Origin: Anaerolineae bacterium
GTDB lineage: Bacteria; Chloroflexota; Anaerolineae; B4-G1
Direction: 5' to 3'
Assembly: GCA_030612585.1 (NCBI GenBank)
Contig: JAUWNP010000241.1
Location: 1-6,147 of the forward strand
Length of the DNA: 6,147 nucleotides
Part shown: positions 927-6,007 of the stretch, in pieces
How positions within the stretch are numbered: position 1 is the first letter of the stretch
Layout of the letters: every line of letters starts with the position of its first letter
Notes under the pieces: model-generated
Told to the model about the DNA's origin: nothing
Seen by the model: only the letters and a program-made list of their open reading frames with translations
Database searches by the model: none
Translations under genes and position numbers: made by a program

Positions 927-2777
927 TTACTCCTGCCGGATGTCAACTTCCAACGGCATGCGCAAGTCTGTTTCTTCAAAGTCCCAAGGTCTGTACTCCA
1001 GCGACTGGTGACGGAAGTAGGTATTATATAACTCGGCGTAGTGACCGGACTGGGCCAGCAGCCCCTCGTGGTCTCCCTCCTCGATGATGCGGCCATCGCG
1101 GATGACGATGATGCGGTCGGCATGCCTGACGGTGGAAAGGCGGTGCGCGATGACGATAGATGTGCGGCCTCGCATCACCATCTCCAGCCCATCCTGGATC
1201 TGCGCCTCGGTGAAGGGGTCCACGCTGGCGGTGGCCTCGTCGAGGATAAAGATGGCGGGGTCGTGCAGGAGCACCCGCGCCAGCGCGACCAGTTGTCGTT
1301 GACCCATCGAAAGCCGCGCCCCTCGCTCCCCCACGTCGGTCTGCAGGCCGTCGGGCAGGGTCTCCAGCCAGTCGCCGCCGCCCACCTGGCGGGCTGCCTC
1401 CTCGACCTCGGCTTCGCCGGCCTCGGGCTTGCCGTAGCGGACGTTGTCACCCACCGTGCCGGAGAAGAGAAACGGCACCTGGGGCACGATCCCCAACCGT
1501 CGCCGGTACTGGGCCAGATCGAAGGAGCGGATGTCCTGTCCGTCCACCAGGATCTGCCCAGACTGAAACTCGTAGAAGCGCGCCAGGAGCCGTGCCAGGC
1601 TGGTCTTGCCCGCGCCGGTATGGCCCACCAGCGCCACGTTCTCCCCCGCTTCTACGGTCAGCGAGAAGTCGGGCAGTACCACCTCGTCACCGGTATAGGA
1701 GAAAGTCACGTCGCGGAATTCGACCCGCCCCTTCAACTCCGGCACCGGCCTGCTCCCGGGCTGGGCGACCCTGGGCTCAGCATCCATCAGCGCGAAGACC
1801 CGCTCGGCAGCCGAGAGGCCATCCTGGAACTGGCTCCAGAAGGAGGCGATGCCGACCAGCGGGAACCAGAAGTAGCCCATCGCCATCGTAAAGAGGAACC
1901 ACTCGCCTGGCGAGATGGCCCCCCGCAGCGCATTGTGCCCGCCGAAGTAGAGCGTGACCGCCAGGGCGATACCGAAGGTGCCCCCCAGCAGGGGGAAGAT
2001 GGATATGAGCGTCAGCCCACGTACCAGGTTGACCTTGTAGGTCCGCCGGTTCAACGCGGCGAACTCGTCGTACATCGTCGCTTCCTGACGGAAGGACTTG
2101 GCGACCCCGATACCGCTGACCGATTCCTGAATATTGGCGTTGACCTGGGCCAGGATACGGCGGGCGTTCTGCGTGACCCGGCGGGCGATACGCCGGAAAC
2201 CCAGCGCCAGCACGACGACAACGGGACTCATCGCCAGCATCAGCAGCGTCAACCCTGGCTGGATGGTGAACAGCGCGACCACCATGATGAACACTACCAG
2301 CACCTGGCTCAACAGGTTCATCGCCAGGTCCACGACGGCGGCAAAGTCCTGCGTATCCGAGGTGACGCGGCTGACGATCTTGCCGCTGGGGTGTTCGTCG
2401 AAGAAGGAGAAGTCACGCCGGGTGACGGCGCTGAAGACGTCCTCGCGCAGTTGCAGCACCACATCGCCGATGGCACGCGCGGAGAAGGTCTGGCGGACGA
2501 AGTTGAAGAGCCACGAGAACAATCGCAGCCCCAGGATGCCAGCCGCCAGCACAACCAGGAGCCGTGAAGTCGGGGTCTCCAACAGCAAGTCCAGGCCCCG
2601 CGAGATGAGGATCGGCACGCCGGTATCAAGCAGCGAGCCCAACGCGATCATCAGGGCGACGAGCAGCATGGCGCGCAGTTGCGGGCGGAAGTAGCCCAGG
2701 ATGCGGCGCAAGAGTTCGACGTCGCCGTACTCCCGGTCGTAGGATTCAGTGTCGAGGCCGTCCAGAATAAAAGCCAA
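927..2777 (-). CDS. ABC exporter half-transporter, consensus-Walker-B subunit (permease-ATPase fusion)
   Basis: 616 residues, normal for a type IV (B-family) exporter half. The membrane domain has six likely segments near residues 36-58, 73-93, 153-172, 175-192, 255-278 and 290-313. The ATPase domain starts near 351: A-loop Tyr361, Walker A GHTGAGKT (385-392), Q-loop Gln433, signature LSMGQ (489-493), Walker B ILDE with catalytic Glu514, D-loop SVD (518-520), H-loop His545. The signature departs from LSGGQ by Met for the first Gly; all else is consensus. In heterodimeric exporters the consensus-Walker-B partner typically carries the weakened signature, so this is probably the partner of the gene at 3237-5207. 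The substrate cannot be told from sequence (drugs, lipids or peptides are all possible). The start is TTG at 2777-2775, the first start-type codon after an in-frame stop, with AGGAGG 4 nt upstream. The C-terminal ~20 residues are acidic (EETDLRMPLEVDIRQE). Confidence 0.95.
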   Translation of the reverse strand: MAFILDGLDTESYDREYGDVELLRRILGYFRPQLRAMLLVALMIALGSLLDTGVPILISRGLDLLLETPTSRLLVVLAAGILGLRLFSWLFNFVRQTFSARAIGDVVLQLREDVFSAVTRRDFSFFDEHPSGKIVSRVTSDTQDFAAVVDLAMNLLSQVLVVFIMVVALFTIQPGLTLLMLAMSPVVVVLALGFRRIARRVTQNARRILAQVNANIQESVSGIGVAKSFRQEATMYDEFAALNRRTYKVNLVRGLTLISIFPLLGGTFGIALAVTLYFGGHNALRGAISPGEWFLFTMAMGYFWFPLVGIASFWSQFQDGLSAAERVFALMDAEPRVAQPGSRPVPELKGRVEFRDVTFSYTGDEVVLPDFSLTVEAGENVALVGHTGAGKTSLARLLARFYEFQSGQILVDGQDIRSFDLAQYRRRLGIVPQVPFLFSGTVGDNVRYGKPEAGEAEVEEAARQVGGGDWLETLPDGLQTDVGERGARLSMGQRQLVALARVLLHDPAIFILDEATASVDPFTEAQIQDGLEMVMRGRTSIVIAHRLSTVRHADRIIVIRDGRIIEEGDHEGLLAQSGHYAELYNTYFRHQSLEYRPWDFEETDLRMPLEVDIRQE

Positions 2778-2791: not shown

Positions 2792-2872
2792 GCCCCCCCT
2801 CAGTCCCCCCCAATTCTGGGGGGGAAGGACTCCCCTCCACCAGAGTTGGGGGAGGGGCCGGGGGTGGGGGCT
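2792..2872. repeat. Left hairpin-rich inverted repeat of the DUF559 cassette
   Basis: From outside inward: hairpin H1, stem CCCCCCCA (2805-2812) with TGGGGGGG (2817-2824) and a 4-nt loop; hairpin H2, CCCCTCCACCA (2832-2842) with TGGGGGAGGGG (2847-2857), one mismatch; then a G-rich stretch ending at 2872, 3 bp before the DUF559 stop codon. Positions 2792-2827 match the reverse complement of 3332-3367 at 34 of 36 bases. Positions 2850-2872 match 3369-3391 directly at 22 of 23. The run GGGGG-A-GGGG-CC-GGGGG-T-GGGGG (2848-2870) meets the usual G-quadruplex pattern on the plus strand. Confidence 0.85.
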
Positions 2873-2875
2873 TGT

Positions 2876-3232
2876 CTACCCACAGGCCGTCGCGATCTCC
2901 ACCAGTACCGTTTCGATATCCCGTTCCACTTGCTCATTGCTGAACCGAATCACGTGATAACCATACGCTTCAAACTGCTCCGTGCGCGCCTCGTCATGCT
3001 CTGCCTGAGATTTGTGGATGCCGCCGTCAATTTCGACAACCAGCCGATGCGCTGGACAATAGAAGTCGGCAATGAATGGCCCCAGGGGATGTTGTCGCCG
3101 AAACTTCAGACCATTGAGTTGCTTGGCTCGCAGTCTCTGCCACAGAGCCTTTTCGGCTGGTGTCATTCGCTGCCGCAATTCCTTGGCTCGCTGCTGTACC
3201 GCTGCCGATGTGCGGATACGACGGGTTCTCAT
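2876..3232 (-). CDS. DUF559 endonuclease-domain protein (Vsr-like)
   Basis: 118 residues, matching the DUF559 family (PF04480), related to Vsr mismatch endonuclease and the wider PD-(D/E)XK fold. Visible marks in order: MTPAEKALWQRLR (about 23-35), LKFRRQHPLGPFIADFYCP (about 42-60) with the conserved Asp of ADF, VVEIDGGIH (about 65-73) with the conserved Glu-x-Asp, and the C-terminal GYHVIRFSNEQVERDIETVL. The N-terminus is very basic (RTRRIRT), fitting nucleic-acid contact. The start is ATG at 3232-3230 with AAGGAG 8 nt upstream; a longer frame from 3292 would only translate repeat DNA into Gly/Arg. The stop codon of the upstream ABC gene (3239-3237) lies between this ribosome-binding site and the ATG, so the genes are probably coupled. 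The biological role of stand-alone DUF559 proteins is not established. It has no obvious link to transport. Confidence 0.88.
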   Translation of the reverse strand: MRTRRIRTSAAVQQRAKELRQRMTPAEKALWQRLRAKQLNGLKFRRQHPLGPFIADFYCPAHRLVVEIDGGIHKSQAEHDEARTEQFEAYGYHVIRFSNEQVERDIETVLVEIATACG

Positions 3233-3236
3233 TCTC

Positions 3237-5207
3237 CTAACTCCTTTTCTCTGCCCCCCTCCGCGCCCTCTCCCCCCGGCCCCCTCTCCCAAAACTGCTG
3301 GGAGAGGGGGAGCAGGCTCTCCCCTCCCCTACTTCCCCCCCAGGATTGGGGGGGATTGAGGGGGGGCAGGGAGGGGCTGGGGGTGGGGGCTGCAGCGGCA
3401 GCAATGCAACGTCGTAGCGGGCGAAGATGCGGCGGTACGGTTCGCAGCGGGCCAGTAACTCATCGTGCGCACCCTCGTCCACCAGTTCACCCCGGCGCAG
3501 GACCAGGATACGATCGGCCCAGCGAATCTGCGAGAGGCGGTGGGTGATGATAAAGGTGGTACGCCCTTCCTGGACAGCACGCATCGCCCGCTGAATCTGA
3601 TCTTCGGTGGCGCTATCTATCGCGCTCGTCGAGTCGTCGAGGATCAGGATGCGCGGGTCGGCCAGAAAGGCGCGGGCGATGGCGATCCGCTGTCGCTGCC
3701 CGCCGGAGAGGGTCACGCCGCGCTCGCCGACCTCCGATTCGTACCCCCCAGGGAAGCCGGTGATGAACTCGTGGGCCTGCGCCTGGCGGGCATAAGACTC
3801 GACCTCCTCCAGGCTGGCCTGTTGCCCAGCGCCGAAAGCGATGTTTTCGGCGATGGAACGGGAGAAGAGGAAGATGTCCTGCTCGATGGCCGAGATCTGC
3901 GAGCGCAACGATTGCAGGTTCCAATCGCGCACGTCCACGCCGTCTACGAGTATGCGCCCCTCAGTCACGTCGTAGATGCGGTCAATCAGCCGGGTGAGCG
4001 TCGTCTTACCGGAGCCGGTCTGCCCAACGATGGCGATGGTCTCGCCGGGGCGGGCGTGGAAACTGACGTTCCTGAGCACCGGCTGGCCGTCGTAGCCGAA
4101 ACTGACGTTCTCAAAGACCACCTCGCCCCGGATCGGTTTAGCCGCGCCGGCCTCGTTCTCGTCCAGTTCGGTCTCAGTGTTGAGCACGGCCAGGATGCGC
4201 GTTGCGCTGGAGACCCCCATCTGCATCAGGGTGAACGTGAAGAGCGAAAAGAAGGTGGGAAAGCGCAGCAGGCCGAGCAAGCCGACGTAGGCGACGACGT
4301 CGCCGGCGGTCAGCGCCCCTCTCTGGAAGAGGAGCAGCGCCTGCAGGATGCCGCCGGCGAAGGCGAAGGCGAAAACGAGGAAGGGGAGGTAGCGCGCCTG
4401 GATCTCGCCCCGCCGCACGAAGAAATCGCGGAACTTGCGGGCGTCGCCGGCGAACTTGTGCTGCTCCTGGGTTTCCTGCGCGTTCGCTTTGACCACCTCG
4501 ATGCCGGAGATCGTCTCAGCCAGGCCGGCGTTCATGGCGCCGAACTGTTCGCGCAGCGCACCGGAGACGGGATTGAGTTCACGGGTGTAGCGGCGCAGCG
4601 TGACGGCAAAGAGCGCGACGTAGACCAGCGGTATCAGCAGCAGTTGGGCCTGCAACATCCCGATGGCGACGATGGGCACCACCAGCCCCAGCAGTGAGTC
4701 GAACATCAGGCTGACGCCGGGGCTGAGCATCAGGTTGAGTTGGTGCACGTCGTTGGTGGCGCGCGCCATCAGATCTCCGACGCGCTGCCGGCTGTGAAAG
4801 GTGAGGCTCTTGCCCAGCAGGCTGACGTAGAGTTCGTCGCGCGCGTCCCGCTCTACGTGTTGGGCCAGGAACTCCACCGCCACGTTGCGGGCCAGGCCGA
4901 GCAGTCCCTGACCAATGCGGGCACCCATCACGCTCAGCGCGATCCAGAGTAAGGTCTGCGAACTGGCTTCCAGGCCGAACCACTCAAAAGGTAGCCCTTC
5001 GAGCAGACCCAGCATGCCAAGAACGCAGTCGAAGGCTCGCCCGGGCAACACGCGGGCCCAGGAGGCCATCGTATTGGCCAGGATGCCAGCCAGCGCCATC
5101 CCCAGCGGCGGGAGCGGGTAACGTAGGATGTGCGAGAGGATCCAGCGCACAGGGCTGGTGCGGTTGTAGCGGTATTCGGTGGTGGGGGTGAACTCTCGTT
5201 TGGTCAA
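3237..5207 (-). CDS. ABC exporter half-transporter, degenerate-Walker-B subunit, with a repeat-encoded C-terminal tail
   Basis: 656 residues, about 50 more than usual. The membrane domain has six likely segments near residues 33-55, 85-106, 163-185, 187-205, 273-296 and 300-330. The ATPase domain begins near 362: Walker A GQTGSGKT (395-402), Q-loop Gln443, consensus signature LSGGQ (500-504), Walker B LILDD, D-loop AID (529-531), H-loop His556. The catalytic Glu position is Asp525, as in the degenerate subunit of TM287/288-type heterodimers. Paired with the gene at 927-2777 it gives one consensus ATP site (that gene's Glu514 with this LSGGQ) and one degenerate site (this Asp525 with that LSMGQ). 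The family-like end is near YRRIFARYDVALLPL (591-605). Residues from about 606 onward, Pro-rich then Gly/Arg-rich, are translated from the cassette repeat and look acquired. The start is TTG at 5207-5205 with AGGAG 5 nt upstream; the next Met is residue 37, inside the first membrane segment. Substrate unknown. Confidence 0.95.
   Translation of the reverse strand: MTKREFTPTTEYRYNRTSPVRWILSHILRYPLPPLGMALAGILANTMASWARVLPGRAFDCVLGMLGLLEGLPFEWFGLEASSQTLLWIALSVMGARIGQGLLGLARNVAVEFLAQHVERDARDELYVSLLGKSLTFHSRQRVGDLMARATNDVHQLNLMLSPGVSLMFDSLLGLVVPIVAIGMLQAQLLLIPLVYVALFAVTLRRYTRELNPVSGALREQFGAMNAGLAETISGIEVVKANAQETQEQHKFAGDARKFRDFFVRRGEIQARYLPFLVFAFAFAGGILQALLLFQRGALTAGDVVAYVGLLGLLRFPTFFSLFTFTLMQMGVSSATRILAVLNTETELDENEAGAAKPIRGEVVFENVSFGYDGQPVLRNVSFHARPGETIAIVGQTGSGKTTLTRLIDRIYDVTEGRILVDGVDVRDWNLQSLRSQISAIEQDIFLFSRSIAENIAFGAGQQASLEEVESYARQAQAHEFITGFPGGYESEVGERGVTLSGGQRQRIAIARAFLADPRILILDDSTSAIDSATEDQIQRAMRAVQEGRTTFIITHRLSQIRWADRILVLRRGELVDEGAHDELLARCEPYRRIFARYDVALLPLQPPPPAPPCPPSIPPNPGGEVGEGRACSPSPSSFGRGGRGERARRGAEKRS
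3241..3246 (-). promoter_or_regulatory. Ribosome-binding site of the DUF559 gene
   Basis: AAGGAG 8 nt before ATG 3232, at the very end of the upstream ABC reading frame. It decides the start against the longer frame from 3292. Confidence 0.7.
3272..3391. repeat. Right hairpin-rich inverted repeat of the DUF559 cassette, with an extra outer G-rich copy
   Basis: From the gene outward: a CCCCCCGG stretch; hairpin H2, a perfect 12-bp stem CCCCCTCTCCCA (3280-3291) with TGGGAGAGGGGG (3299-3310) and a 7-nt loop; hairpin H1, CCCCCCCA (3335-3342) with TGGGGGGG (3347-3354) and a 4-nt loop. Positions 3332-3367 are the inverted partner of 2792-2827. Beyond the cassette end, 3369-3391 repeats 2850-2872 in direct orientation. 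On the plus strand 3348-3389 contains six runs of three or more G. All of this lies inside the reading frame of the upstream ABC gene. Confidence 0.85.
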
Positions 5208-5381: not shown

Positions 5382-5435
5382 GGAACCACTGAGTCACTGA
5401 AAAACACTGACAGCACTGATACAGTGCCTCAGTGA
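5382..5435. repeat. Left CACTGA repeat next to the GxxExxY gene
   Basis: Four CACTGA words (5387, 5395, 5405, 5414) at 8-10 nt steps, then TCAGTG at 5429. Positions 5385-5419 match 5897-5931 directly at 31 of 35 bases. GCACTG-ATA-CAGTGC (5413-5427) is a perfect small hairpin. It lies just after the gene's stop codon at 5447. Confidence 0.85.
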
Positions 5436-5446
5436 TCCCAATACTC

Positions 5447-5830
5447 TCAATTCGCCAACCGCTTGATCTGCAACTTCCTGGCCCCAAAGTTGAGTAGGAG
5501 CCCTACCTTGTAGCCAGATGCTTTGAGGTATGACAACGTCTGCACAAAGTCCACGTCCTCAAGCGCCGACTTGGCCTTGATCTCGACCATTGCCTCATCA
5601 ATCACGAAGTCCACCCGCTTGCGCCCCACCTTCGTGCCCTTGTAGTACACGTCCATCCAAACCTCGCGGTCAAATTCCAGGTCGTGCGCTGGCAACTCGA
5701 GAGCCAGAGCGCGCTGGTAGATTACCTCCCTGAAGCCGGGGCCAAGTGTACGATGTACTTCTGTAGCGGCCGCGATAATCCGCGCCGTCACGTCAGAAAG
5801 CGGATATTCGTCCTTCACGTATTGCTGCAC
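5447..5830 (-). CDS. GxxExxY family protein (PD-(D/E)XK nuclease-like)
   Basis: 127 residues, the usual length for the GxxExxY family (TIGR04256; PDDEXK_3 group). The name motif is present as GFREVIY (Gly32, Glu35, Tyr38) within LGPGFREVIYQRALALEL. The nuclease-type core follows: RVDFVID with Asp74, then VEIKAKS with Glu83-x-Lys85, the D...ExK pattern of PD-(D/E)XK enzymes. A C-terminal strand reads YKVGLLLNFGARKLQIKRL. All expected residues are intact, so the protein could be active, though no confirmed activity is known to me for the family. The start is GTG at 5830-5828 with AAGGAG 8 nt upstream. CACTGA repeats bracket the gene on both sides. It lies upstream of and in the same direction as the ABC operon, with 239 bp and two hairpins between, so co-transcription is uncertain. 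Confidence 0.88.
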   Translation of the reverse strand: MQQYVKDEYPLSDVTARIIAAATEVHRTLGPGFREVIYQRALALELPAHDLEFDREVWMDVYYKGTKVGRKRVDFVIDEAMVEIKAKSALEDVDFVQTLSYLKASGYKVGLLLNFGARKLQIKRLAN

Positions 5831-5838
5831 CTCTTTTT

Positions 5839-5844
5839 CTCCTT
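5839..5844 (-). promoter_or_regulatory. Ribosome-binding site supporting a GTG start
   Basis: AAGGAG 8 nt before GTG 5830. There is no in-frame ATG close by; this spacing fixes the start. Confidence 0.65.
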
Positions 5845-5865
5845 CAGCGTATTCATTTGCTCAAC

Positions 5866-6007
5866 GATTCAGTGGTTCAGATATCATGCATGTAGGACCA
5901 CTGAATCACTGAAGGTCACTGACAGCACTGACCACCCTTCAGTGTCCTCATCCTCTTTCAGTGCTTCAGTGGTTCAGATACCCCCACGCAGGACCACTGA
6001 ATCACTG
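5866..6007. repeat. Tandem pair of palindromic units, right CACTGA repeat
   Basis: Two units about 97 bp apart. Each has TTCAGTGGTTCAGATA (5868-5883 and 5965-5980, identical), a 10-11 nt gap, then GGACCACTGAATCACTG (5895-5911 and 5991-6007, identical). Within each unit the arms are complementary: GATTCAGTGGT (5866-5876) with ACCACTGAATC (5897-5907), and TTCAGTGGT (5965-5973) with ACCACTGAA (5993-6001). Further CACTGA/TCAGTG words fill the stretch between. The first unit continues into the long match with 5385-5419. No gene is seen in this stretch. Confidence 0.88.

Follow-up and report, generated by a model that had tools for sequence, protein, structure and literature searches.

The window analysed here is the whole 6,147-nucleotide stretch of contig JAUWNP010000241.1 from an Anaerolineae bacterium (Chloroflexota). 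It contains a small cassette, a gene for a Vsr-like nuclease of the DUF559 family enclosed by hairpin repeats, which lies between two ABC exporter genes. The features of the cassette and its borders are as follows.

927..2777, minus strand: ABC exporter gene 2; its start is 7 bases from the extended left arm
2792..2824, no strand assigned: outer left arm, a triplex-type hairpin plus tag (repeat search, motif scan, alignment)
2832..2870, no strand assigned: inner left hairpin plus tag GGGGGTGGGGG (folding, alignment)
2879..3232, minus strand: DUF559 (Vsr-like) nuclease gene, 118 amino acids; ATG at 3232, stop at 2876-2878; Pfam PF04480, E=1.2e-40
3266..3307, no strand assigned: inner right hairpin plus tag CCCTCTCCC / GGGAGAGG (folding, motif scan, alignment)
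3334..3366, no strand assigned: outer right arm, an inverted copy of 2792-2824 (repeat search, alignment)
3369..3391, no strand assigned: extra tag copy beyond the outer right arm, a 23-nt direct repeat of 2850-2872 (the inner left tag), 96%
3411..5207, minus strand: ABC exporter gene 1; its frame continues into the right arms to 3237

An earlier note, made from the letters of this DNA alone, had described the outer 36 bp of the flanks as inverted copies, with a second hairpin inward on each side and a single Vsr-like gene inside. Positions 2792-2827 indeed match the reverse complement of 3332-3367 at 34 of 36 places, and a repeat search of the window extends the arms to 2785-2827 and 3332-3374 (43 nt, 88% complementary). 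A second hairpin is present on both sides (2832-2870 and 3266-3307). The symmetry is imperfect in two respects: the sequences of the inner left and inner right hairpins differ, and the extra tag copy at 3369-3391 lies beyond the right arm. DUF559 is the sole gene between the arms according to the list of open reading frames and the Pfam scan. The flanks have an inverted-copy score of 62, which none of 1000 dinucleotide-preserving shuffles of both flanks reached (mean 24, maximum 44); low-complexity runs of C and G are thus insufficient alone to produce it. Four matches to a purine-motif hairpin plus mirror block, a predicted intrastrand triplex, are found in the arms under a relaxed definition. 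Rfam gave no match in the window at gathering scores.

The DUF559 product is predicted by a structure model to resemble 3hrl, I-Bth0305I and Vsr. Its residues E27, D56, H73 and D80 are invariant across 42 aligned DUF559 sequences and are all kept at 92 of 97 DUF559 loci. PADLOC returned weak matches only. The family is rare on plasmids (43 of 72,556 records, some of those chromosome-sized).

Inverted hairpin flanks are common around DUF559 genes in many phyla. One scan provided 43 loci from Chloroflexota, Bacteroidota, Planctomycetota, Patescibacteria, Pseudomonadota and others, and most of the 22 inspected have C-rich palindromes in at least one flank. A search of 40 of these genomes gave 109 matches, and a set of 106 distinct matches, the window included, was assembled with its surrounding DNA. 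Perfect hairpins in this set number 4.8 (upstream) and 5.1 (downstream) per kb in the first 100 bp and 0.2 per kb at 2-8 kb, an enrichment of about 25-fold close to the gene. Inverted-copy flanks scoring at least 40 enclose 54 of the 95 matches suitable for the test (at least 60 bits and at least 250 bp on each side). Matched placements within these loci reach that score in 3 of 950 cases, and small open reading frames used as controls in 1 of 194. The alternative raised in the earlier note, ordinary dispersed repeats with no preference for DUF559, does not agree with so strong a preference. Seven of ten named records (Azospirillum, Sphingomonas, three cyanobacteria, two Deinococcus, Sinorhizobium, Qipengyuania) also score at least 40; the named records were ten chosen of a list of 43 records, then two more Deinococcus, then four of 22 records. 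The relaxed triplex motif occurs in the flanks of 48 of 97 DUF559 loci (on both sides in 28), in those of 6 of 194 control open reading frames, and in none of the 97 after one block shuffle of the DUF559 flanks.

A second set of Anaerolineae DUF559 loci has inverted-copy flanks in 8 of 18 cases, and two other families of small genes resemble it. GxxExxY genes (PF13366) have flanks scoring at least 40 at 12 of 24 Anaerolineae-class loci, with arms unlike BoxC, the triplex repeat of Escherichia coli considered below, and genes for four-helix-bundle 23S IVP proteins (PF05635, L306-L335) have inverted-repeat flanks at 14 of 24 loci, with an arm type of their own (GCTGATTGCTGAC-like). This control comparison left out loci shorter than 3,100 bp and used 18 of 29 DUF559, 24 of 30 PDDEXK_3 and 24 of 30 IVP loci. 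The window itself holds a second small nuclease gene of the GxxExxY type (5447-5830, minus strand), located at 5383-6007 within another family of inverted and direct repeats (CCACTGAATCACTGA...). At its other end, positions 2-671, are a HigB-like toxin gene and an adjoining helix-turn-helix gene that is perhaps the antitoxin.

The repeats follow the DUF559 genes in number as well as in position. Among 298 genomes of one class, searched with the pattern GGGAGARGGN{2,8}GGGNTGAGGG, at least five copies were present in 52 of the 92 that have a strong DUF559 match (E<1e-15), as against 26 of the remaining 206 (odds ratio 9, p=1e-14, kinship being ignored). The link holds at p<0.001 in each of four genome-size strata, and a reversed control pattern matched 4 times in all 298 genomes. 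Among 91 Hyphomonadaceae, again with kinship ignored, 20 of 36 genomes having a DUF559 type of 60-93 bits are repeat-rich, compared with 11 of 55 lacking it (odds ratio 5.0, p=7e-4); the other 16 of the 36 have fewer than five copies and are exceptions to the trend. Other DUF559 types alone have no effect on repeat load (3 of 9 versus 28 of 82).

Repeat type and gene type also correspond. In the 10 of 91 Hyphomonadaceae genomes with copies fully listed, all 11 rows belonging to the 60-93-bit type, which represent 10 distinct loci because one contig overlaps itself, lie at most 202 bp from a copy, as do none of six of the type above 93 bits and one of eight weak rows. Over 97 loci, one of them a spurious 72-bp fragment (L100), protein identity correlates with arm similarity, whether loci of different genomes are compared (Mantel r=0.27; 0 of 500 permutations) or loci of the same genome (r=0.25; 14 of 2000). 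DUF559 paralogues are 32-81% identical in the eight genomes compared, with the spurious L100 row left out, and the repeats reach dozens of copies in genomes related to those with diverged paralogues. RAYT genes are likewise diverged and accompanied by many repeat copies.

Many repeats occur as doublets that contain no gene. Among the 150 Hyphomonadaceae copies listed, 52 of 55 close pairs are inverted and combine a hairpin of type A (GAGAGGGG) with one of type B (GAAGGG), with spacings of 71-76 (32 pairs) or 108-116 (17 pairs). Inverted doublets with fixed spacing have the layout of a REPIN. Eleven aligned doublets have the hairpins and short spacer motifs in common and not the flanks; the exception is the pair L343/L346 of genome G374, which is alike in the flanks also. 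A doublet insert of about 190 bp is present in G411 and G383, and the same junction is empty (0-7 bp) in G386, which is close to G411, and in G339 and G416; G349 and G380 have other sequence there.

Whole cassettes vary in the same manner. Four genomes have the whole cassette at one Hyphomonadaceae site, and the further states among its 22 sequences are a cassette whose gene has an internal deletion, a doublet, single hairpins and an empty junction. The DUF559 proteins at this site are 64-91% identical, and these identities and the flank tree would fit either an insertion long ago that was lost many times or a small number of gains. Two Hyphomonas loci, L086 and L090, have unlike DUF559 types (49% identical, different arms) and both flanks matching. 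In two others, L042 and L183, the right arm stops some two bases short of the apparent start codon of the next gene, for which the repeat may supply the ribosome-binding site.

Deinococcus provides the best case of cassette relocation. In D. proteolyticus the cassette lies between hpaB and an oxidoreductase gene, and the oxidoreductase gene and hpaE overlap by 4 bp. In Deinococcus NW-56 it lies between the oxidoreductase gene and hpaE, with a VOC-family gene between hpaB and the oxidoreductase gene. The nucleases of the two are 87.5% identical in amino acids and the oxidoreductases 80%. No DUF559 gene is annotated in the hpa cluster of D. radiodurans, D. ficus or D. deserti, where hpaB and the oxidoreductase gene are spaced by -4, 33 and 12 bp, respectively; in D. 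radiodurans an SMI1/KNR4 gene precedes hpaE. A short truncated copy occupies the hpaB/oxidoreductase place in D. wulumuqiensis, a copy adjoins the VOC gene in D. aetherius, whose cluster is without the oxidoreductase, and in D. psychrotolerans the cassette is within paa genes. The inner arms are consistent from one of these copies to the next, apart from a variant form in D. aetherius, and the outermost bases vary by copy. Because the same cassette type is found at two hpa junctions and is absent from relatives, cassettes change place. The earlier note had also envisaged a layout conserved vertically with no empty sites; instead, single sites have empty, gene-less and occupied alleles, and Deinococcus has two different junctions. 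Of the signs of mobility that it proposed to look for, empty-site alleles were found; no target duplication was recognised at the junctions inspected, and no clean duplicates of a whole cassette were found within one genome.

The window's own insertion site was compared with the best 30 orthologous ABC loci (63-68% identical) from the 298 genomes. None has DUF559 within the fetched stretch. The second ABC gene starts inside the stretch in 27, with a median of 49 extra bases as against 630 in the window; two of the 27 have long inserts (600 and 1165 bases), with content other than a DUF559 cassette. Frame 3237-3410 of ABC gene 1 runs through the arms and gives the protein a Pro/Gly-rich C-terminal tail of translated repeat, and among closer relatives (proteins 77-96% identical) these tails vary, some having translated repeat like the window and others a clean stop. 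The lack of DUF559 at orthologous loci, the short spacers and the variable tails together indicate that the window cassette is, on comparative sequence evidence, an insertion at a gene junction. Other repeats stand at the same ABC junction in several relatives. Species differ in the repeat family that they have at one and the same gene junction (L235, L236, L239, L243, L257; L359, L360), as if stop/start junctions were shared landing sites.

The arms belong to the same motif class as the BoxC/PIT/TMECO repeats, known from E. coli since the 1990s. This motif forms an intrastrand triplex in vitro and has 3610 copies in 262 proteobacterial genomes, and in E. coli a type A hairpin is paired with a type B (Holder et al. 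2015, PMC4666352). The available text of that paper reports no associated mobile element, no class of flanking genes, and neither a partner gene nor a means of spreading, and it contains no word starting with "DUF" or "nuclease". The strict published motif (CCCTCNCCC N3-6 GGGNGAGGG N3 GGGNGAGGG; PMC4666352) was found in 18 of 406 loci overall. These include a Bipolaricaulota genome (L006) that has it on both sides of the DUF559 gene, and E. coli K-12, whose DUF559 gene ycjD has an exact BoxC copy 0.2 kb away. The arms on pSymB of S. meliloti have CCCCTCACCCTAACCCTCTCCCC in common with E. coli BoxC. On the upstream side of ycjD a hairpin with a 16-bp stem and of non-BoxC type was read by eye (L264:6759-6801). 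The DUF559 nuclease may be the partner enzyme of the orphan BoxC/triplex repeats.

Of 5426 E. coli genomes, 3333 contain the ycjD stretch at a cover of at least 80%; strain EcN_Sk has, after fabI, a tetR-type regulator and efflux genes in place of ycjD. With ycjD plus BoxC as query, BLAST matched a median of 22 places in 37 sampled chromosomes with ycjD and 6 in 22 without it (p=4e-8; 59 of 60 rows, a 132-kb record being left out), a difference that follows lineage. Three E. coli alleles were considered as indicators of precise BoxC ends, and none of those examined showed them. At yihS/yihR the relatives without BoxC have a different spacer, at ygfF/gcvP the relatives are missing more than the doublet, and at aaeR/tldD the allele is from one strain only, with a BoxC 12 bp shorter.

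The association of DUF559 genes with the repeats and the relocation of cassettes are well supported. We consider it fairly probable that they represent a widespread two-part element, REPIN-RAYT-like, in which a Vsr-like DUF559 nuclease stands in place of the HUH transposase, and we infer that the nuclease drives the spread of the repeats. The nuclease would recognise its own hairpin or triplex arms, probably when single-stranded or extruded at replication forks, and would nick or cut there; host repair or recombination would then copy the unit into a new intergenic junction, and the doublets would be gene-less copies served in trans.

Several observations weigh against this interpretation. PD-(D/E)XK nucleases are not known to join strands unaided, and no insertion event was caught in the act. 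The ends are inverted, but no target-site duplication of the kind that goes with the terminal inverted repeats of classical transposons and MITEs was recognised by eye at the Hyphomonadaceae and Deinococcus junctions inspected. Synteny and identities would also fit long vertical descent with losses in some clades. A near-identical cassette pair in G374 (97% amino-acid identity) was rejected as a clean cassette copy, because the duplication to which it belongs extends over at least 1.1 kb. The repeat-load tests ignore kinship in both samples; 17 genomes of the class sample have at least ten copies and no strong DUF559, 19 of the 92 with strong DUF559 have no copy of the pattern, and eight Hyphomonadaceae are repeat-rich without a DUF559 of at least 60 bits. 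Strong inverted flanks are absent from 41 of the 95 loci and even the relaxed triplex motif from 49 of the 97, and other small genes also have inverted flanks. The strict BoxC motif has no match in the window, the arms of which are a variant, and was not found in 388 of the 406 loci, many of which are not DUF559 loci. E. coli without ycjD has 2-7 BLAST places in some chromosomes, yet O157:H7 has 15.

The chief rival explanation is that DUF559 serves in DNA repair, as an enzyme specific for structures or mismatches, and removes the replication blocks that hairpin and triplex repeats cause, the repeats spreading otherwise and the gene being kept, and located, where they are frequent. We regard this as unlikely, as it leaves unexplained the inverted arms around the gene itself, the type-specific arms and the Deinococcus cassettes at different junctions. 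We think it quite unlikely that an unidentified enzyme moves the repeats in trans and that DUF559 is captured cargo or an insertion target. Repeat-rich genomes without DUF559 exist, as that explanation would have it, and PDDEXK_3 and four-helix-bundle IVP genes are likewise bracketed by inverted repeats of other sequence; against it, the loci listed show a separate arm type for each gene family, and DUF559 types match repeat types. Y1/RAYT transposases, moreover, are unlinked to the repeat in Hyphomonadaceae. Repeat-rich genomes make up 5 of 18 with the RAYT family PF01797 and 26 of 73 without it, and RAYT was rejected as the mover, occurring in only 5 of the 31 repeat-rich genomes. It is very improbable that the arms are ordinary terminators or regulatory hairpins, alike through base composition. 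They are G/C-rich hairpins at gene ends, and their DNA folding z-scores are modest (-1.87 and -2.50), but such flanks are rare at control small open reading frames and random placements, the shuffles do not reach the window's score, and the doublets are of fixed size, of A+B composition and variably present; an earlier report cited by Holder et al. (PMC4666352) found the motif without promoter or terminator activity.

A broader form of the two-part element is proposed tentatively, and we hold it to be possible but somewhat doubtful. It envisages transposase-free mobile DNA in which a Vsr-fold nuclease takes triplex-forming hairpins as ends and spreads by cut-and-repair, from Chloroflexota to E. 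coli K-12 (ycjD/BoxC), as one of several small genes (with GxxExxY and the four-helix-bundle IVP) that each own a private arm family. A dedicated DUF559 nuclease, if confirmed, would supply the lacking partner gene and means of spread of the BoxC/triplex repeats, would give a role to a large family of "unknown function", and would mean that pairings of a repeat with an enzyme, on the pattern of REPIN-RAYT, have evolved with enzymes of unrelated kinds. The model is open to testing in E. coli K-12 via ycjD. An open-access literature search, judged mostly from search results, gave no report tying DUF559 to flanking repeats; the component parts are known, and their pairing appears to be new as far as that search shows.

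The cassette can be compared with several known systems. IS200/IS605 elements also have hairpin ends around one small gene, but the HUH TnpA that lies between their subterminal hairpins is absent here, where the sole gene is DUF559. That gene belongs with the DUF559/Vsr-like nucleases by its PF04480 match, its conserved acidic and histidine residues and its predicted fold. Vsr, which nicks T:G mismatches in VSP repair and is associated with an adjacent cytosine methylase, has the same fold, as has Caulobacter VsrA, which contains a DUF559 domain; unlike Vsr, the gene lies between repeat arms, and no cytosine methyltransferase is found among the six window open reading frames scanned. The EDxHD homing endonuclease I-Bth0305I differs in that DUF559 here is outside any intron or intein and its arms are dispersed repeats. 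BoxC/PIT/TMECO repeats share the motif class and the inverted pairing of A with B, but were published, in the text available, with neither partner gene nor mobile element, whereas the repeats here are tied to DUF559. REPIN-RAYT systems share extragenic palindromes, inverted doublets with spacers, and a repeat type tied to the neighbouring gene (PMC3116915). The corresponding features here are inverted palindromes around the gene, fixed-spacing inverted doublets (in Hyphomonadaceae) and repeat types that match gene types, much as the earlier note had supposed in recalling REP-RAYT logic with an unrelated fold. The tag here is CCCTCACCC-like and the repeats are predicted to form purine-motif triplexes, unlike those of REPIN-RAYT, and a Vsr-like nuclease (PF04480) is found in place of the HUH Y1 tyrosine transposase. 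Since that defining enzyme is absent, the DUF559 cassettes are REPIN-RAYT-like by logic and stand outside the group as such.

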